A stretch of 64,000 nucleotides of DNA from an uncultured Fodinibius sp. (GTDB taxonomy: Bacteria; Bacteroidota; Rhodothermia; Balneolales; Balneolaceae), in the NCBI GenBank assembly GCA_913056235.1, contig CAJXMW010000001.1, positions 558,001 to 622,000 on the forward strand, read 5' to 3'. Below the pieces are notes generated by a model that saw nothing but the letters and a program-made list of their open reading frames with translations, did not search any database and had not been told where the DNA came from. Position 1 is the stretch's first letter. Every line of letters begins with the position of its first letter. Below, piece by piece: positions 4,015-26,951 of this stretch. The translations under genes and the position numbers were made by a program.

Positions 4015-4467
4015 TTATATCCATTCAAAACCTCCGTCTTCGGTAATCCTGAGATTTTCTTTTTTCCCCTTCTTTGCCAGTTCAACCAAGTTGGTACCTT
4101 CAAGCATTAGCCGTATGCCGTCACGCGTATCGGCCCACTTGTCATGCAGGGGACAAGGTTTTTTGACTCCACACCCCGGCAATCCAAGGGCACACTCGGT
4201 AAAAAGCTCAGTGCCATCAATGGCCGCAACGATTTCAAACAAACTCACCTCAGAGCCTGATTTCGTAAGACGTACACCGCCTTTTGGACCTTTATGGGAT
4301 TCCATAAGCCCCGCACTGGTTAGCTGCTGCAAAATTTTTGTCAAGAAATGGAAAGAGATATCCAACTTTTCGCTCATTTCACGAATAGAGATGTACCCGT
4401 CTCCCTCATGGGAGGCAAGGAAAAGTGACGACCTCAATCCATATACACAGGCTTTTGAGAGCAACAT
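4015..4467 (-). CDS. Rrf2-family iron-sulfur transcriptional regulator next to nosZ
   Basis: 150-residue winged-helix protein of the Rrf2 family (NsrR/IscR relatives). The helix-turn-helix covers roughly residues 25-67, with the wing GPKGGVRL. Three cysteines at 92, 99 and 105 (ECALGLPGC...PC) match the cluster-binding loop. The family senses NO, oxygen or iron-sulfur status. It is about 58% identical by eye to the Rrf2 protein encoded at 14566-15018. The dyad in its own promoter matches that of the nos operon, so auto-regulation plus nos control is a reasonable model. Whether it is a true NsrR is not decided by the sequence. Confidence 0.92.
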   Translation of the reverse strand: MLLSKACVYGLRSSLFLASHEGDGYISIREMSEKLDISFHFLTKILQQLTSAGLMESHKGPKGGVRLTKSGSEVSLFEIVAAIDGTELFTECALGLPGCGVKKPCPLHDKWADTRDGIRLMLEGTNLVELAKKGKKENLRITEDGGFEWI

Positions 4468-4483
4468 TCTTATTAAAAGTTTT

Positions 4484-4499
4484 AAGAGTATTTTATCTT
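4484..4499. promoter_or_regulatory. Candidate Rrf2 auto-regulatory operator
   Basis: Second exact copy of AAGAGTATTTTATCTT, 17 bases upstream of the Rrf2 ATG. Here the dyad extends one base on each side (TAAGA...TCTTA). Its closeness to the start fits repression of its own gene. Confidence 0.65.
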
Positions 4500-4628
4500 A
4501 ATTTAAGGCTGTTGCGATTAATCAGCAAATATATTTTTGGAATAATATTACTCGTAATAACAAGGAACGAATTTACTCCTATCCCACTTCGTTATGTTCT
4601 TAGATACACCTTGAATTAAGATCATACT

Positions 4629-5660
4629 ATGGAATTTGGCATTTACACCTTCGCCGAAAACACGAATCATCCCCAGATAGAATCTAAACTAACGCCGGCC
4701 AAACGGCTGGAAAACCTTATGCAGGAGATAGAACTAGCCGACGAGGCTGGTCTTGATGTCTTCGGGATTGGCGAACATCACCGGGATGAATACCTGTCCT
4801 CCTCTCCATCCACGATACTCTCGGCTGCTGCAGCCCGTACCGAACAAATTAAGCTAAGCAGTGCTGTTACAGTATTGGGCTCGGAGGATCCGGTGCGAGT
4901 GTATCAACAATTTTCGGCCATTGACTTGCTTTCCAGAGGCCGTGCTGAAATTATGGTAGGCAGGGGTTCTTTTGTAGAATCCTTTCCCTTGTTTGGCTAT
5001 GATCTCAATGACTATGAGGCGCTGTTCGAAGAAAAGCTGGACCTCCTGCTGAAGCTACGCGAAAATCAGACCATCAGCTGGAGCGGTACCCATCGTCCCG
5101 ACATCGACAACCGGGGGGTCTATCCACAGCCCTATCAAGAAGAAATACCAATATGGCGTGCGGTAGGCGGAACCCCTGAATCGGCTTATCAAGCGGGAGC
5201 GTTGGGACTTCCCATGGCGCTGGGTATTATCGGCGGACAGCCCAAGCAGTTTAAGCAACTGGCAGAAATCCACCAGCGAGCCGCTGAACAGAATGGGCAG
5301 AAGGCACCAAAACTGAGCATCAACTCTCACGGTTTTATAGCCGATGACTCTCAAGAAGCTGCTGACCTGGCATTTCCAGCTTTTAAAATGACCATGGATC
5401 GCATTGGCAAAGAAAGGGGATGGTCGCCCATGAGCCGCGATCAGTTTGAGAAAAGCCGCACGCTAAAAGGTGCCAACGCGGTCGGTAGTCCACAGGAAAT
5501 TATTGACAAGATTTTATATCAACACGAGATTTTTGAACACGACCGATTTTTGCTGCAGATGAGCGTGGGTAGCATGCCTCACAAAAAGTTATTGCGCTCT
5601 ATCGAACTCTTTGCCACGAAAGTAGCGCCGGCAGTGAACAAGGCGCTCAACCAAAAATAA
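4629..5660 (+). CDS. LLM-class flavin-dependent oxidoreductase (luciferase-like)
   Basis: 343-residue member of the bacterial luciferase-like monooxygenase superfamily, a TIM barrel that uses reduced FMN or F420. Visible family features are the N-terminal FGIYTFAE strand, the GIGEHH motif near residues 46-51, SSAVTVLGSEDPVRVYQQFSAIDLLSRGRAEIMVGRG near 80-115, and a C-terminal half with the GSPQEI segment. The substrate is unknown. It stands alone, divergent from the nos-linked Rrf2 gene. A small dyad (ATTAC-TC-GTAAT, 4547-4558) lies upstream. Confidence 0.88.
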   Translation: MEFGIYTFAENTNHPQIESKLTPAKRLENLMQEIELADEAGLDVFGIGEHHRDEYLSSSPSTILSAAAARTEQIKLSSAVTVLGSEDPVRVYQQFSAIDLLSRGRAEIMVGRGSFVESFPLFGYDLNDYEALFEEKLDLLLKLRENQTISWSGTHRPDIDNRGVYPQPYQEEIPIWRAVGGTPESAYQAGALGLPMALGIIGGQPKQFKQLAEIHQRAAEQNGQKAPKLSINSHGFIADDSQEAADLAFPAFKMTMDRIGKERGWSPMSRDQFEKSRTLKGANAVGSPQEIIDKILYQHEIFEHDRFLLQMSVGSMPHKKLLRSIELFATKVAPAVNKALNQK

Positions 5661-5738
5661 ATTCCTTCACAATTTCCGTTGCAAGAACAGTTTTTTTATA
5701 CTGCAACCGCTTAATCAAACGACTTTAAACATCTATTT

Positions 5739-6167
5739 ATGTACACTGGACTACAATATCTACATTCGGGATTTGCTTACTTGGTACTGGCCGCACTAGT
5801 CATCGTTTTTGGGTATGTGCTTGTTAATTACTTCAAAAGCAATCCATTTACCGAAAAGGTACGCAAAGCTTCGCTGGTAGGACTCATTGTATCCCATCTT
5901 CAACTGCTTGTTGGACTGGTACTTTACCTTATCTCTCCCAAGGGATTGTCTAATTTTTCTGGAGAAGCGATGGGGGATGCCATGTCTCGGCTATATATGT
6001 TGGAACATCCGCTAACGATGATTATTGCCATAATCCTGATTACCGTTGGCTATTCCAAGGCCAAAAACGGCACGAATGATTCCTCTCGCTACAAAAAGAT
6101 TCTTATTTTTTACGGTCTTGGGCTCGTGCTGATGCTGATTCGCATCCCATGGTCGGTATGGCCCTAA
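5739..6167 (+). CDS. Small four-helix membrane protein, cytochrome b-like
   Basis: 142-residue integral membrane protein with four hydrophobic segments, near residues 10-28, 45-65, 88-103 and 121-138. Histidines occur in or near the helices (LHSGF at 9, SHLQ at 53, EHP at 87), a layout seen in small b-type cytochrome-like proteins of Bacteroidota. It lies 78 bases after the monooxygenase and converges on the heme A synthase gene. Haem binding is inference from the His positions. Confidence 0.65.
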   Translation: MYTGLQYLHSGFAYLVLAALVIVFGYVLVNYFKSNPFTEKVRKASLVGLIVSHLQLLVGLVLYLISPKGLSNFSGEAMGDAMSRLYMLEHPLTMIIAIILITVGYSKAKNGTNDSSRYKKILIFYGLGLVLMLIRIPWSVWP

Positions 6168-6182
6168 ACAGCAGCGGCCCGC

Positions 6183-7250
6183 TTAAGCGGCTACTGTATT
6201 TTGCCGGCTGATAGTTGACAAGTAGTGATAGTAGGCCAGCCAGGCTACCCACAAAATCATTGCTACAGCCTGATGGATTACCCCTAATGCCACTGGCACA
6301 TAGTAGATAAGGGTAAAGATACCCAGCATATACTGCACAAGAATAATTGCGCCCAGGATATGCACCCGAAGTTTAATATCTTGAGTCAGACTATTATCGG
6401 TTATTGCTTTGACCCACAACCCTAACACCGTCAATGCCAGTACGGTACCCAGCAAACGGTGAACCCATTGAACCGTTCCGGGATTCTCTACCAGGTTAAT
6501 CAGGAGCGGCTGCATCGAAAAGCCGTTTTGGGGCAGCCAGCTTTCATTCATAAGTGGAAAGGTGTTATAGATAAAGCCGGCATCGAGTCCCGCCGTGAGA
6601 GCACCCCAGAATATCTGCAGAAACAAGAGTATCCCCACTGCCAATCCCCATGGTTTGTAGGAGGGGCCAAAATGGGTTGAAGGGTTCGAGCTTTGTTGCA
6701 AATCTAAGGCATACCAAGCACAGAAAGCAATCAAGATAAACGCGAGCAAAAGGTGTGCTGCAAGGCGATAGTGACTCACATAGGGAACATCAACAAGCCC
6801 ACTCTTCACCATAATCCACCCCATAGCACCTTGAGCGGCACCAAGTCCCATCAGCACAAACATGCGCTTGAGGAGCTTTTTGTTGAAATAGCCGCGAATC
6901 CACAACCAGGCAAAAGGGATGAGAAAAACGATGCCCAGCAGACGCCCCAAGAGACGGTGCAGATATTCCCAAAAAAAAATCTGTTTAAACTCCCACAAGG
7001 TCATTCCCGTATTTATGTGCTGGTATTCAGGAAACTGTTTATATCGCTCAAAAACCTGTCGCCATTCTTCGGCCGACATCGGCGGCAATGCCCCCATAAT
7101 CAAATTCCAGTCGGTCATTGAAAGACCGGAGCCCGTCAGTCTGGTAATTCCACCTATAACGAGCATTACAAAAATGAGTCCTACGCCTGTCCACAGCCAA
7201 CGTGCTATATATTTTTTCTGCTTTTCACCTATCTGATCATTCTGCATCAA
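6183..7250 (-). CDS. ctaA: Heme A synthase (COX15/CtaA family)
   Basis: 355-residue polytopic membrane protein with about eight transmembrane segments. It converts heme O to heme A for aa3-type oxidases. Recognisable COX15 motifs are GGITRLTGSGLSMTDW near residues 33-48, FWEYLHRLLGR near 92-102, and QWVHRLLGT in the second half, with His residues that are haem ligands or substrate contacts in the family. The length fits the longer COX15-like (type 2) class. A heme A enzyme implies that this organism has an aa3-type oxidase elsewhere, besides the cbb3 enzyme in this window. Confidence 0.92.
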   Translation of the reverse strand: MMQNDQIGEKQKKYIARWLWTGVGLIFVMLVIGGITRLTGSGLSMTDWNLIMGALPPMSAEEWRQVFERYKQFPEYQHINTGMTLWEFKQIFFWEYLHRLLGRLLGIVFLIPFAWLWIRGYFNKKLLKRMFVLMGLGAAQGAMGWIMVKSGLVDVPYVSHYRLAAHLLLAFILIAFCAWYALDLQQSSNPSTHFGPSYKPWGLAVGILLFLQIFWGALTAGLDAGFIYNTFPLMNESWLPQNGFSMQPLLINLVENPGTVQWVHRLLGTVLALTVLGLWVKAITDNSLTQDIKLRVHILGAIILVQYMLGIFTLIYYVPVALGVIHQAVAMILWVAWLAYYHYLSTISRQNTVAA

Positions 7251-18261: not shown

Positions 18262-20501
18262 ATGGGTACAGATACATCAACGGCCGGCCAAAACGTCGGC
18301 ACCGACACCTTTTACTACGACAATGAGATTGTCCGCAAATTTGGGATTGCCACCATTTTTTGGGGCATTACCGGTTTCCTTGTCGGCTTAACCGTCGCCA
18401 TAAAACTGATTTTTCCTAATTTCCTGGGCTTCATCCCAGAACTTTCCTACGGACGATTGCGACCACTCCACACCAATGCAGTAATTTTTGCCTTTGCGGG
18501 CAACGCCATTTTCTACGGCGTTTATTACTCGCTGCCGCGGCTTTGTAAAGCCTCGATGTGGAGCAATCTGCTCAGCAAAATCAACTTCTGGGGCTGGCAG
18601 GCCATCATATTATCGGCCGTCATCTCTCTGCCGATGGGGTTCAATACCAGTAAGGAATACGCCGAACTGGAGTGGCCAATCGACATCGCAATCACAATAA
18701 TCTGGGTCATCTTCGGCATCAACATGCTGATGACGATCTGGAAACGCCGTGAAAAGCACATCTACGTGGCCATCTGGTTCTATATTGCGACCTTCGTAAC
18801 GGTGGCCGTGCTCCATGTGGTTAACTCTATTGAGATCCCGGCCACTATCATGAAAAGCTACCCGATTTACGCCGGCGTACAAGATGCCCTGGTGCAGTGG
18901 TGGTACGGGCATAATGCCGTGGCCTTCTTTCTAACCACGCCATTCCTGGGGATCATGTACTACTTCATCCCCAAAGCGGCCAACCGACCGATTTTCTCAT
19001 ATCGACTATCCATTGTCCACTTTTGGTCGCTCATTTTTATCTACATTTGGGCCGGACCGCACCACCTGCTTTACACCGCACTACCGGGCTGGGCGCAGGC
19101 ACTGGGTACGGTCTTCAGCATCATGCTGATTGCCCCCTCCTGGGGTGGGATGCTTAACGGGCTGCTTACGCTCCGTGGCGCCTGGGATCGGGTTCGCGAA
19201 GATCCTGTACTCAAGTTTCTGGTCGTTGGTATTACTGCCTACGGCATGGCTACATTCGAGGGACCAATGCTCTCTATTGGCAACGTAAATGCCGTGGCAC
19301 ACTACAGCGACTATATTATTGGTCACGTGCACCTAGGCGCCCTGCTCTGGAATGGAGGGCTGTCCTTTGCGATGCTCTACTACATCACCCCGCGCATCTA
19401 CAACACCGACCTGTACTCAACCAAGCTTGCCAATGTGCACTTCTGGTTTGCTACACTGGGTGCCGTATTCTACGTCATCCCGATGTACTGGGGCGGTATC
19501 ACACAGAGCCTGATGTGGAAAGAGTTTACCACCGAAGGCGTGTTGGCTTATCCCAACTTCCTGGAGACAGTGCAGCAGATTATCCCGATGTACGCTTTGC
19601 GCGCTGTCGGTGGAACGCTCTTTATTATCGGAGCAATTTTTGCAGTCTATAACCTCTATAAAACCTCCAAAAGTGGTACGCTGGTATCGCAGGAAGAAGA
19701 CGAAGCGCAACCTATTGTTGAGCACAAGTCCGAAAACAAAGAAAAATGGCACCGGCGCCTTGAAAGCCGTCCGGTACAGTTTACAGCTCTTACATTGGTC
19801 GTCATACTCATTGGAGGTATCGTTGAGTACGTACCTACGGCCCTGATTGATTCTAACGTGCCGACCATTTCCAGCGTAAAACCGTATACCCCGCTCGAGG
19901 TCGAAGGGCGCGATATCTACATCGCTGAGGGCTGCAACAATTGCCACTCGCAGATGATTCGTCCCTTCCGATCCGAAACCGAGCGCTATGGCGAATACTC
20001 CAAAGCGGGCGAATTTGTGTATGATCACCCCTTCCTTTGGGGATCTAAACGTACCGGACCGGACCGGACCTGCACCGTATCGGCGGCAAGTATCCCGACT
20101 CGTGGCATCTGCGTCACATGGCTGACCCAACCTCCACATCGCCAGGTTCCATCATGCCGGCTTACTCGTGGTTGCTGGAACAAGAAATGGATATGGAATC
20201 TGTGGATGAGCGTATCTCAGCACTTCGCGCCGTAGGCGTCCCCTATGCAACAGGGTACGAAGAACAGGCACTGGCTGATCTTAAAGCGCAGGCTAAAGAA
20301 ATTACCCAAGGCCTCCACAAGAGCGGCTTTACGCAGATCGACGGTATCAAGATTGAATCAGACAAGAAGATCATTGCCATCATCGCCTACCTGCAGCGGC
20401 TGGGTATCGATATCAAAGGCAACAACAGCCCGTTCGAGGATCTGCCATCCAGCAAAGCGCTGGGCACCGGGATACTGGAACAACGAAATCAAAATAAATA
20501 A
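18262..20501 (+). CDS. ccoNO: Fused cbb3 oxidase subunits CcoN-CcoO, interrupted by a 5-base frameshift
   Basis: The frame from 18262 encodes CcoN (residues 1 to about 480: twelve-helix haem-copper subunit, with RLRPLHTNAV, WWYGHNAVAF and IIGHVHLGAL haem/copper histidines). A linker leads into CcoO, whose haem c site is C-N-N-C-H at 558-562. At residue 600 the frame leaves the family sequence and runs to a false stop at 20235. The true continuation (LHRIGGKYPDSWHLRHMADP) is in another frame and ends at 20501. The break sits at three tandem copies of ACCGG; two copies would give a 744-residue protein. CcoN-CcoO fusions are common in Bacteroidota, so the fusion is normal. Only the frameshift is odd: mutation, phase variation or a sequence error. 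Confidence 0.92.
20053..20070. repeat. ACCGG tandem repeat (3.6 copies) at the CcoO frameshift
   Basis: ACCGG is repeated three times and followed by ACC. The CcoO consensus here is R-T-G-P-D-L, which needs two copies; the third adds five bases and shifts the frame. Short tandem repeats of non-triplet unit are prone to slippage. Confidence 0.9.
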
Positions 20502-23403: not shown

Positions 23404-24873
23404 ATGGACGTTCAACTCAACATATCGACCGATGAAGAGGCCATAACTCCTACGTGCGACTTCACCTATAGCTGGTGTTTAAGTTGTGGACTGTCTGAGG
23501 ATGAAGCGAATCGGTTTACCATAGCCGTCAGTGAGCTTATCAGCGATATTATTCTGTTTGCCTATCCGCATGATGGCCGTGCATATTTTGATTTAACCTT
23601 TCGCCATACGCTCTCAAACGTGGAAGTTATTGTCAGTGAGGTCGGAGAACCTTTTGATCCTGATCGGCACCGATACAATCCCCAGGAAGCCATTCAACAA
23701 GGCAATTTCGAAGGGGCCGGATTCCGGCTGATTCGGCGTTTTACCGATGAGTTTTTTTTCATTAATAAGGGCAAAGAGGGCAAGGAGTTCCGGCTAACGA
23801 AGAATTTAGATCTTCATGACCTCGACGAAATGATTGAGCTCTCACGGTCCCAAAAACCAAAAGAACCAGAGTACGAAGAAGATGAAGTGCCCGAAGTGCA
23901 ATTCCAGATTTCGCAAATCACGCCTGCCGATGCCGAAGATATCGCAAAACTGATCTACCGGACCTACGAGTACACCTATCCAAAAGAGGATCTGTATTTC
24001 CCAAAAAAGATTGAGAAGACCCTTCTTGGAAAAGAAAAACTCGGGGTAATTGCGCGAACGGAAGAAGGGGAGGGAATCGGTTATTTTGCTGTACTAAAAA
24101 AAGAGGATTCAAATATTGCTGAAGTCGGCGAAGCCGTTGTAACTCCTGCCTATCGCCGGCAGGGAGCCATGAGTAAAATGATGGAAAAGCTTATCAACAC
24201 TGCTCGAAATCAACAACTGGACGGGCTAATGGGCAAAGCCGTTACAATTCATCCTGTAAGCCAACGGGTTAATCAAAAGTTCGATTTTGTTACCACCGCC
24301 CTGATGCTGGGTGAAACCAACAAGGTAACTTACAAGGGATTTGATGAACAATATCCACAGCCGGTATCGGTGGTGATTGACTTTCTGCCATTGCAAACTC
24401 CCCACAAGAGATCGGTTTATCTTCCGGCGGAATATGCTGATATACTACAGGATACTTACAATGAGTTGAAAATTCCGGTTGCCCCCCAAAACCCACCGGC
24501 CTATAAAATGGCCGACCAATCTGACATGGAGCTTTCAATCAATTATGCAGACGCTACCGCACTGATTGTCGTCCACAAATACGGTCCCGACTTTCGATCG
24601 GTACTCTCGGATATGTTAGAAAGCCTTGAAAAACAGGAAGATCTCAATGCGATCTATGTTGACTTGCCATTGGACAATTCAGCGACCCCGGAACACCTTC
24701 CTATATTGAGGGAATTGGACTTCTTCTATTGCGGATTAGCCCCGATGTTTCATCGACAATCAGACTACCTGCGCCTGCAAAAAATTAATGCCGAACTCGA
24801 CCTGGAACTGGTAGACGTATTCTCTGACTTTGGTAAAAAAATTAAATCGCGAGTAGCCGATGAATATTGTTAA
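23404..24873 (+). CDS. Anti-sigma-like ATPase domain fused to a GNAT acetyltransferase
   Basis: 489 residues. Residues 1-145 are an RsbW-like GHKL ATPase: the N-box region AVSELISDIILFAY (41-54), a G1-like EVGEPFDPDRH and a G2-like EGAGFRLIRRFTDE. The usual N-box Asn is Asp48 here, so ATP/Mg binding may differ. Residues about 165-300 are a GNAT fold with the acetyl-CoA loop VTPAYRRQGAMSKMMEKLI. The remaining 190 residues are unassigned and include a second alpha/beta domain. The gene overlaps a STAS gene by 14 bases, so the two probably form a partner-switching pair in which the output is acetyl transfer rather than sigma-factor binding. Confidence 0.83.
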   Translation: MDVQLNISTDEEAITPTCDFTYSWCLSCGLSEDEANRFTIAVSELISDIILFAYPHDGRAYFDLTFRHTLSNVEVIVSEVGEPFDPDRHRYNPQEAIQQGNFEGAGFRLIRRFTDEFFFINKGKEGKEFRLTKNLDLHDLDEMIELSRSQKPKEPEYEEDEVPEVQFQISQITPADAEDIAKLIYRTYEYTYPKEDLYFPKKIEKTLLGKEKLGVIARTEEGEGIGYFAVLKKEDSNIAEVGEAVVTPAYRRQGAMSKMMEKLINTARNQQLDGLMGKAVTIHPVSQRVNQKFDFVTTALMLGETNKVTYKGFDEQYPQPVSVVIDFLPLQTPHKRSVYLPAEYADILQDTYNELKIPVAPQNPPAYKMADQSDMELSINYADATALIVVHKYGPDFRSVLSDMLESLEKQEDLNAIYVDLPLDNSATPEHLPILRELDFFYCGLAPMFHRQSDYLRLQKINAELDLELVDVFSDFGKKIKSRVADEYC

Positions 24874-25156
24874 GACACATAAAGAAGGGAATAAACTAGA
24901 GGTTAAGCTGAATAATGCTTTTAATCTTACTGCACGGAATAAGCTGGAAAACCGGCTTCCGAAAGAGATCACGCATCTGCAAATTGATCTAAGTGATTGT
25001 CGATTAGTAGACAGCGAAGGCGTCATCTTTATGTTTGAGTGGCAAAACACGGGTAACACACTCGAATTGATTAATCCGCCCGATATACTTTTTGAGATTA
25101 TTGAAATACTCGAACTCCGCGAACACTGGAATGCAACCATTACTGAAACCAATTAA
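24860..25156 (+). CDS. STAS-domain protein (anti-sigma factor antagonist type)
   Basis: 98-residue single STAS domain. The central motif IDLSDCRLVDSEGVIFMFEW places the phospho-acceptor Ser at residue 52, as in SpoIIAA and RsbV. The protein is on the short side for the family and its C-terminal helix is present. It starts inside the end of the ATPase-GNAT gene, which implies translational coupling and a physical partnership. Confidence 0.87.
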   Translation: MNIVKTHKEGNKLEVKLNNAFNLTARNKLENRLPKEITHLQIDLSDCRLVDSEGVIFMFEWQNTGNTLELINPPDILFEIIEILELREHWNATITETN

Positions 25157-25159
25157 CCG

Positions 25160-25771
25160 ATGTCTGACACTAATACCAGGATGATTGAAATTGATACCGA
25201 TCTGGATGTATGGAGTAAAAGCTACACCGTACATTCGTTGGTAATTATCGGGAGCAAAGAGGAAAACGGCCGCTATAATTTCGCCCCCAAACACATGGCT
25301 ATGCCCCTTGGATTTAGCAATCACTTTGGGTTTATGGGTACCCCGCGCAAAAGTACATACCGCAATGTGCAACGGGAAAAAGTATTTACCGTAAGCTACC
25401 CGCAGCCCAATCAGGTTATTATTTCCAGCTTGATGGCCACGCGTCGTGAGGAGAATGACTCCAAGCCTGTGCTGGATCAGGTGCCGACCATTGATGCCAA
25501 ACAGGTTGACGGCAAATTTTTACAGGACTCCTACCTGCAGTTTGAATGTAAATTTACTGAGTGCCTGGGCAAGTTTGGTGAGTGGGAAATTATCGCTGGA
25601 GAAATTGCCGCCGCGTACGTCCACGAAGAGTTCCTGCGGAAGGATGAGGAAGAGCTCGAGAAAAATAGGCGACTCCAGGAACATCCCCTACTGGCCTATT
25701 TACATCCCGACCGATTTAGTGTCATCAAAAAAAGCAATGTTTTTCCTTTCCCAAAAGATTTCAAACGATAG
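25160..25771 (+). CDS. Flavin reductase-like domain protein
   Basis: 203-residue protein of the flavin reductase/FMN-binding split-barrel group. Visible features are the N-terminal AP-K-HMAMPLGFSNHFGFMG segment (FMN pocket), STYRNVQREKVFTVSYP near residue 70, and the middle CKFTECLGKFGEWEIIAGEI. It follows the STAS gene with three bases between them and precedes an M20 peptidase gene by ten bases, an apparent operon. The substrate is unknown. Confidence 0.83.
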   Translation: MSDTNTRMIEIDTDLDVWSKSYTVHSLVIIGSKEENGRYNFAPKHMAMPLGFSNHFGFMGTPRKSTYRNVQREKVFTVSYPQPNQVIISSLMATRREENDSKPVLDQVPTIDAKQVDGKFLQDSYLQFECKFTECLGKFGEWEIIAGEIAAAYVHEEFLRKDEEELEKNRRLQEHPLLAYLHPDRFSVIKKSNVFPFPKDFKR

Positions 25772-25781
25772 TCCCCCGTAG

Positions 25782-26951
25782 ATGACTGAACGCGCCAACG
25801 AGTTATATGAATATTTACTTTCTGAAAAACAGGATTTTCTATCCCTGCTGCAATCCCTCGTCGAGCTGGAAACCCCTTCCGACCAACCGGACACATTTCC
25901 GCCATTATGGGATATATTGCAACAAGAGTTTAAATCGCTGGGATTTTCTGTGGACCTTTTTGAGGGCTCTAAAACAGCTGGACAACTGCTCTGCACACCT
26001 CCTGGCTTTGATTCCCAAAGTCCTATTCAGCTAATTATTGGCCATTGCGACACCGTCTGGGATACTGGAACTCTGGAAGAAATGCCCTTCAGCGTTGAAG
26101 ACGATACGGTATCCGGACCGGGTGTTTTTGATATGAAAGCCGGTCTGTCCATGATGATATTTGCGATGCGGGCCATTACCCACCTAGACTTATCGCTGCC
26201 TGTACAACCGGTATTTTTAATCAATTCGGATGAGGAAATTGGCAGTGAGGAATCAAAAGAGCTGATTATCGAACAGGCCAAACGAGCTGAGCGGACGTTG
26301 GTGCTGGAACCCGCGTTGGGGACTGATGGGAAAATAAAGACACAGCGAAAGGGCATTGGAGAGTTCGAAATCACCATCAAGGGCAAGCCATCACATGCGG
26401 GATTAGCGCCAGACGAGGGCGTAAGCGCCATCTTGGGGTTATCTCATATCGTGCAGCAACTCTTTCGGCTAAACGACCCGGCCAACGGCATCACCGCAAA
26501 CGTAGGTACCATCGAAGGCGGCGAACGATCGAATGTTATTGCTGCCCAAAGCAAAGCCTTGGTCGATGTTCGAGTGCCTACCAAAGAAGATGGCGAACGA
26601 ATTGAAGAAACCATCTACAATTTAACACCCGAAATTGAAGGCATAGAAATTAATGTTAGTGGTGGTATTAGGCGTCCACCGCTCGAAAAGAACGACGGTA
26701 ACAAAAAACTCTGGCAACTCACTAAAAAGCTGGGTGCCGAACTCGATTTGGACCTCCAGGAAGGAACCTCGGGCGGTGCCTCCGACGGTAACCTTACCAA
26801 TCTACATTCGCCCACTATCGATGGCCTCGGGGCCGTTGGCGAAGGAGCCCACGCCTTTCATGAAAAGATATTCTTGGATCAGACACTAAAGCGGCTAGCT
26901 CTTCTTACGCTTCTCCTGCTACATCCTTCACACAAATCCTCAAAAAACTAA
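25782..26951 (+). CDS. M20-family metallopeptidase (glutamate carboxypeptidase-like)
   Basis: 389-residue zinc exopeptidase. Metal ligands are visible: His and Asp in IIGHCDTVWDTG near residues 88-92, Asp in GPGVFDMKAG near 119, Glu-Glu in NSDEEIGSEES near 150, and the terminal His in GEGAHAFHE near 362. The dimerisation domain with GKPSHAGLAPDEGVSAI is present. The arrangement resembles carboxypeptidase G2. No signal peptide, so it is probably cytoplasmic. Last gene of the operon. Confidence 0.92.
   Translation: MTERANELYEYLLSEKQDFLSLLQSLVELETPSDQPDTFPPLWDILQQEFKSLGFSVDLFEGSKTAGQLLCTPPGFDSQSPIQLIIGHCDTVWDTGTLEEMPFSVEDDTVSGPGVFDMKAGLSMMIFAMRAITHLDLSLPVQPVFLINSDEEIGSEESKELIIEQAKRAERTLVLEPALGTDGKIKTQRKGIGEFEITIKGKPSHAGLAPDEGVSAILGLSHIVQQLFRLNDPANGITANVGTIEGGERSNVIAAQSKALVDVRVPTKEDGERIEETIYNLTPEIEGIEINVSGGIRRPPLEKNDGNKKLWQLTKKLGAELDLDLQEGTSGGASDGNLTNLHSPTIDGLGAVGEGAHAFHEKIFLDQTLKRLALLTLLLLHPSHKSSKN

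Follow-up and report, generated by a model that had tools for sequence, protein, structure and literature searches.

A conserved ATPase–acetyltransferase fusion and its STAS partner gene in Balneolaceae: a putative partner switch with enzymatic output

Gene organization of the locus

The window, that is, the whole stretch of 64,000 nucleotides analysed, comes from a salt-lake bacterium of the genus Fodinibius/Aliifodinibius (Balneolaceae). In a contig scan that reached close relatives only, the nearest named ones, Fodinibius halophilus and Aliifodinibius salipaludis, share 68-69% identity with it. Four genes follow one another on the forward strand, to which all window features described below belong. 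The first (23404-24873) encodes a HATPase–GNAT–GNAT-like fusion protein of 489 aa, defined by its ORF, Pfam, an AlphaFold model and orthologs. The second (24860-25156) encodes a STAS-only protein of 98 aa, recognized by comparing an ortholog profile with RsbV/SpoIIAA. The two ORFs share 14 bases, 24860-24873, just as a sequence-only reading of this DNA had noted, and recurrence in 32/32 loci rules out a chance or mis-called overlap.

Gaps of 3 and 10 bases precede the remaining two genes. Third in the Balneolaceae operon, a gene at 25160-25771 encodes a flavin-reductase-like protein of 203 aa with an FMN-binding split barrel (PF01613, E 2.5e-10), and the last (25782-26951) an M20 metallo-hydrolase of 389 aa resembling ArgE, DapE and carboxypeptidase G2 (PF01546, E 2.8e-21). 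Neither a sigma factor gene nor a PP2C gene is present within the four-gene unit, and no PIN-domain VapC toxin is encoded in the operon, whose enzymes are the flavin-reductase-like protein and the M20 hydrolase. A promoter/terminator scan returned sites no more numerous than in shuffled sequence.

Genes for a cbb3 oxidase lie upstream. Since they adjoin the unit only in some Fodinibius-lineage loci, they are not counted as members of it. In the window, a frame break at 20040-20120, in a repeat of CCGGA units, divides the ccoNO-type oxidase gene in two (ORFs 18262-20235 and 20118-20501), and a single frame encodes both parts in three relatives (L033, L143, L036). The break reflects either repeat slippage, sequencing error or phase variation.

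Domains of the fusion protein

Residues 1-140 of the fusion protein (23404-23823) form a GHKL ATPase domain like those of RsbW and SpoIIAB, according to Pfam, profile and structure matches. HATPase_c_2 is found over cut-off at residues 8-133 (E 4.1e-12), and profile comparison with RsbW (6m36_A) gives E 4.6e-20. In the AlphaFold model of the fusion, with a mean pLDDT of 84.9, residues 1-136 superpose on RsbW and SpoIIAB at Z 16-17, and structure comparison pairs the model with RsbW 6m37 at Z 17.4 over 115 residues.

A GNAT acetyltransferase domain occupies residues 165-335 (23896-24408). PF00583 is found at residues 180-274 (E 2.5e-8), also over cut-off, and residues 165-335 of the model match GNAT enzymes with Z about 14 over 130-155 residues. 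The joining of an RsbW-like ATPase to a GNAT domain in one chain, as first read from the letters of the sequence, is thus borne out by Pfam and by the model. The acetyl-CoA loop, placed by ortholog alignment, is R251-R-Q-G254-A-M256 (24154-24171). This RxxGxM sequence departs from the usual pyrophosphate-loop pattern, R/Q-x-x-G-x-G/A, at the final position, which is Met here and can be Leu or Phe in relatives; R251 and G254 are kept, and R251 is nearly invariant. The beta-lysine acetyltransferase AblB was considered as an identity for the protein and was not adopted, its match (E 9.5e-4) being far below the cut-off.

The C-terminal third of the protein, residues 336-489 (24409-24870), had gone unmentioned in the sequence-only reading. 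Modelled alone, it reaches a pLDDT of 92.3. Its best 25 Foldseek matches at E <= 1e-3 are all GNATs, with a best E of 7e-5, and VIA-align pairs it with GNAT-like folds at Z about 8 over 80-100 residues; beyond GNAT-like folds, neither Foldseek nor VIA-align gave a standout structure match. Because the CoA loop is absent, we read this part, as modelled, as a second, probably degenerate GNAT-like domain.

The four parts of the pair evolve at different rates. Mean distances are 0.72 for the GNAT domain, 0.84 for the ATPase domain, 1.29 for the C-terminus and 1.28 for the STAS protein; the GNAT domain is therefore the slowest-evolving of them. Partial correlations of the STAS distances with those of the ATPase domain (r 0.31), the C-terminus (0.34) and the GNAT domain (0.17) do not point to the ATPase domain above the others as the part that STAS contacts.

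The STAS partner

For the single STAS sequence, the Pfam match to STAS_2 is weak (E 2.5e-4) and below cut-off. The profile built from its orthologs matches RsbV (E 4.3e-8) and SpoIIAA (E 3e-5) of B. subtilis. In the profile alignment, Ser52 (25013-25015) falls on the phospho-acceptor serine of these proteins, and it is well established that the serine so aligned is the one phosphorylated in RsbV and SpoIIAA (restated in PMC13373217). All 32 operon-type members have a residue able to fill this place, Ser in 26 and Thr in 6.

A genome-wide search of Balneolaceae found that the STAS protein belongs to a dedicated subtype (E < 1e-17), which occurs in 25/25 genomes whose fusion locus is not truncated and in 0/66 that lack the fusion. 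A gap in E-values from 3.5e-18 to 4e-15 divides this subtype from ordinary STAS proteins.

Conservation of the gene unit

The fusion is carried by 26 of 92 Balneolaceae genomes (27 loci), by 6 of 27 genomes of a sister family in the same class, and by 2 of 79 genomes of a distant family. The neighbourhoods of the fusion loci were fetched and then scanned with profiles, loci cut by a contig end being left out. In Balneolaceae, the order fusion, STAS, flavin reductase, M20 is found in 26/26 assessable loci; in the sister family, 6/6 read fusion, STAS, M20. Identities fall to about 40% across the 32 assessable loci of the two families, and the outer flanking genes vary between lineages. So the unit is kept by selection and not by recent descent.

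The placement of both enzyme genes in the operon by the sequence-only reading holds in Balneolaceae; in the sister family M20 follows without a flavin reductase (0/6 loci in the profile scan of neighbourhoods). M20 is thus present at every assessable locus of both families and the flavin reductase at every Balneolaceae locus, but since five genomes lacking the fusion also have M20, this gene is less tied to the fusion than STAS is. The M20 locus scan used a profile whose training sequences included an unrelated aminotransferase, which accounts for a seeming M20 gene beside the fusion in L052; the remaining M20 genes are supported by BLAST to the window M20, by genome search or, in L107, by Pfam. 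A seeming absence of STAS at L035, L036, L037 and L044 arose because an antisense ORF had been picked instead, and STAS is present there.

The co-occurrence that the sequence-only reading suggested looking for is found at all assessable loci of the two families for the fusion, STAS and M20 genes, and in Balneolaceae for the flavin reductase gene as well. It had also named a separation of the two genes in related genomes as grounds for abandoning the idea; within the class the genes stay together and the dedicated STAS subtype is missing from fusion-free genomes, and only among distant Bacteroidota are they apart. Outside the class there are eight full-length homologs, a ninth, degenerate one (L052) being excluded from this number. 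Three have STAS directly upstream, one of them (L048) with little downstream sequence, and five have none nearby, which indicates that the fusion can function without an adjacent STAS gene. In two of the STAS-upstream cases, the order is a separate RsbW-like kinase, STAS and fusion, which is what phosphorylation of STAS by a kinase other than the fusion would predict. The ATPase–GNAT fusion itself is retained in all full-length homologs found.

In a midpoint-rooted tree, the STAS-downstream group forms one clade (support 100/100) and the STAS-upstream group another (98/91). The tree thus gives the downstream arrangement one origin and the upstream arrangement another, with STAS linked to the fusion in both. 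One genome (G354) contains two complete four-gene operons of different clades; the second copy (L104, C6:4798-6246) groups with the sister family, with moderate support (84/92).

The nucleotide site of the ATPase domain

Alignment to RsbW and SpoIIAB places the N-box at E44-x-x-x-D48 (23533-23547) and, in the G1 box, Glu79 (23638-23640) at a position where Asp is usual. The Asp at position 48, where the solved RsbW and SpoIIAB carry Asn, had been remarked on before and proves to be typical of the clade: among 33 operon-type members, E44 is found in 33, Asp48 in 30 and Asn48 in three (L037, L041, L133). Glu79 is found in 32/33, and L041 has both Asn48 and the usual Asp79. The G2-box glycines G104 and G106 are present in the window protein, and the second G2 glycine is lost in 11/33 members. 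Outside the class, position 48 is Asn apart from a Ser in the L049/L106 pair and a gap in the degenerate L052.

Compared with an intact RsbW kinase site (E-x-x-x-N, G1 Asp, GxG), the window protein thus differs at Asp48 and Glu79. We take Glu79 to stand at the position of D87 in RsbT. In RsbT, the STAS kinase of another system, changing this conserved active-site Asp (D87N) leads to loss of activity (PMC4976288). A search of the open-access literature found no paper on what an Asp in the N-box does to SpoIIAB.

We take these differences to mean that the nucleotide site has drifted in most, though not all, operon-type members. The earlier suggestion that the domain binds rather than phosphorylates its partner is then a reasonable reading for proteins like that of the window, given the conservation of Asp48 and the further changes in the nucleotide site. 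It does not extend to a dead kinase in general, because three operon members retain Asn48; since L041 also keeps the G1 Asp, some operon-type ATPase domains may be active kinases.

A proposed mechanism and its alternatives

We propose that the pair is a partner switch whose output is an enzyme: STAS would dock on an ATPase domain of weakened kinase function and gate the acetyltransferase in a phosphorylation-dependent manner. To this proposal we give about an even chance. Strict co-inheritance, the gene overlap, the invariant Ser/Thr and linkage in two arrangements speak for STAS and the fusion as a working pair, and the GNAT domain being the most conserved argues for a real enzymatic output. 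On these grounds, together with the phosphorylation machinery of the host genome described next, gating of the acetyltransferase by STAS docking is favoured.

Six PP2C (SpoIIE) domains are encoded in the genome, along with a canonical STAS/RsbW-like/PP2C cluster, and these could write and erase the STAS phosphate. The cluster (L108, 2976-5504; G000 C1:249975-252503) consists of STAS, RsbW-like and GAF-PP2C genes and is a candidate source of both kinase and phosphatase.

In the mechanism that we envisage, unphosphorylated STAS would dock on the ATPase domain as RsbV does on RsbW, and docking would switch the adjoining GNAT domain on or off. Because the N-box Asn has become Asp, the G1 Asp has become Glu and the second G2 glycine is often lost, the drifted ATPase domain would, in most members, be mainly a docking and nucleotide-sensing module. 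Ser52 would receive its phosphate from a different RsbW-type kinase in the cell and lose it again to one of the cell's PP2C phosphatases. Since an M20 amidohydrolase/carboxypeptidase always follows, the acetylated substrate would probably be a small amine or an amino-acid derivative; this is the weakest step and a first guess. What we infer here is the docking, the gating, the direction in which control runs and the substrate. With more reserve, we raise the possibility that a former serine kinase has become an adaptor that reads phospho-state inside an acetyltransferase, so that a separate kinase could toggle metabolic or protein acetylation without transcription.

It is also conceivable, if rather unlikely, that the ATPase domain is an active STAS serine kinase despite Asp48, and that the fusion acts autonomously, phosphorylating its own partner and freeing itself as in RsbW/RsbV. 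Invariance of E44 and of the STAS Ser/Thr is what a kinase–substrate pair would show, the tight gene overlap means that both proteins are made together, and Asn48 persists in three operon members, one of them with the usual G1 Asp, as Asn does, with the exceptions given above, outside the class. However, the prevalent Asp48 and Glu79 and the loss of the G2 glycine in a third of members all touch the nucleotide site, and two distant relatives have a gene for a separate RsbW-like kinase ahead of STAS and the fusion.

A further alternative, which we consider improbable, is that the STAS–ATPase pair regulates the operon enzymes or some other partner, with the GNAT domain constitutive and merely attached, for example for co-localisation. 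The distant homologs that have the fusion without a nearby STAS fit this, as does the constancy at the locus of M20 and, in Balneolaceae, of the flavin reductase, which equals that of STAS; yet the fusion is intact in all the full-length homologs found, its GNAT domain is the part most conserved, and M20, found also in fusion-free genomes, is less tied to it than STAS. Least probable of all, and by our estimate very much so, is that the GNAT domain is an acetyl-CoA sensor (or acylates the switch proteins), its acetyl-CoA state setting how STAS is held while STAS acts on another target: the atypical CoA loop, the GNAT-like domain without a CoA motif behind it, and the existence of STAS-only proteins with unknown downstream targets, SypA and RbaV (PMC8256260, PMC3999984), speak for it, but the strong conservation of the GNAT domain with R251 and G254 kept is as expected for catalysis.

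Comparison with known systems

The proposed docking of STAS on the fusion draws on RsbW/RsbV (SpoIIAB/SpoIIAA) of Bacillus, with which the pair shares the ATPase fold, the STAS family, the catalytic Glu, the STAS phospho-acceptor and adjacent overlapping genes. Here, in contrast, the ATPase shares its chain with a GNAT and a GNAT-like domain where RsbW has a sigma factor to bind, the N-box has Asp and the G1 box Glu, and the operon contains no sigma factor or PP2C gene. Because the N-box Asn and the G1 Asp are missing and the unit has no sigma factor, the window protein is not a canonical RsbW, although it would operate in the way a partner switch does.

In VapKSC, the STAS protein VapS directly inhibits an enzyme, VapC, and mimicking phosphorylation at the conserved serine disrupts the complex (PMC13373217). 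VapKSC and CapK/CapS resemble the present pair in that a GHKL kinase and a STAS protein control a neighbouring output that is not a sigma factor (PMC13373217). In those systems the output, a PIN RNase or a wHTH repressor, is separate or fused to STAS, whereas in the present pair it is the ATPase that carries the output, an acetyltransferase, and there is no PIN nuclease and no HTH. VapKSC is the nearest functional precedent.

SypE/SypA and RbaW/RbaV (PMC8256260, PMC3999984), as well as LvrC, likewise place RsbW-like or GHKL domains and STAS-only proteins beyond the sigma-factor scheme, and LvrC ranks tenth among the structure matches of the fusion model. Their outputs are biofilm formation, gene-transfer-agent production and two-component signalling, and none is described with a GNAT domain.

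Control of a GNAT by a regulatory domain on the same chain is known from the cAMP-regulated Pat. The ACT–GNAT protein AAPatA is likewise reported to have a fused regulatory domain that controls a GNAT acetyltransferase (PMC6434083). The regulators of AAPatA and Pat bind small ligands, whereas here the regulator would be a putative protein-docking ATPase with a dedicated STAS partner. In the open-access literature searched, we found no paper that describes the combination of an RsbW-type ATPase, GNAT and STAS.

Significance and related loci

Partner switching is known mainly for freeing sigma factors, and where such a sigma factor is missing the output is often unknown. The conserved ATPase–GNAT/STAS pair points, in Bacteroidota, to a concrete enzymatic output that can be assayed and connects STAS phosphorylation with acetylation, suggesting that a switch best known for the control of transcription here acts directly on an enzyme. 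If this is true, the pair would show in nature how an RsbW-type kinase site drifts towards a pure docking module, with the Asn48 members as built-in comparisons.

Two other loci bear on this GNAT family. In L052 (G218, 4205-6814), genes for a tandem-GNAT protein, an acyl-carrier-like protein and an AMP-binding ligase come before that of a divergent ATPase–GNAT-like protein, and an aminotransferase and a transporter are next in line; the locus looks like a small biosynthetic cluster that uses this family. On a conjugative Salmonella plasmid (CP054717), a match was rejected as a homolog of the fusion, only its GNAT domain being similar (32% over 133 aa). There (L102, 2992-3873), a 294-aa GNAT follows two acyl-adenylating enzymes, a context hinting at acylation in small-molecule synthesis.
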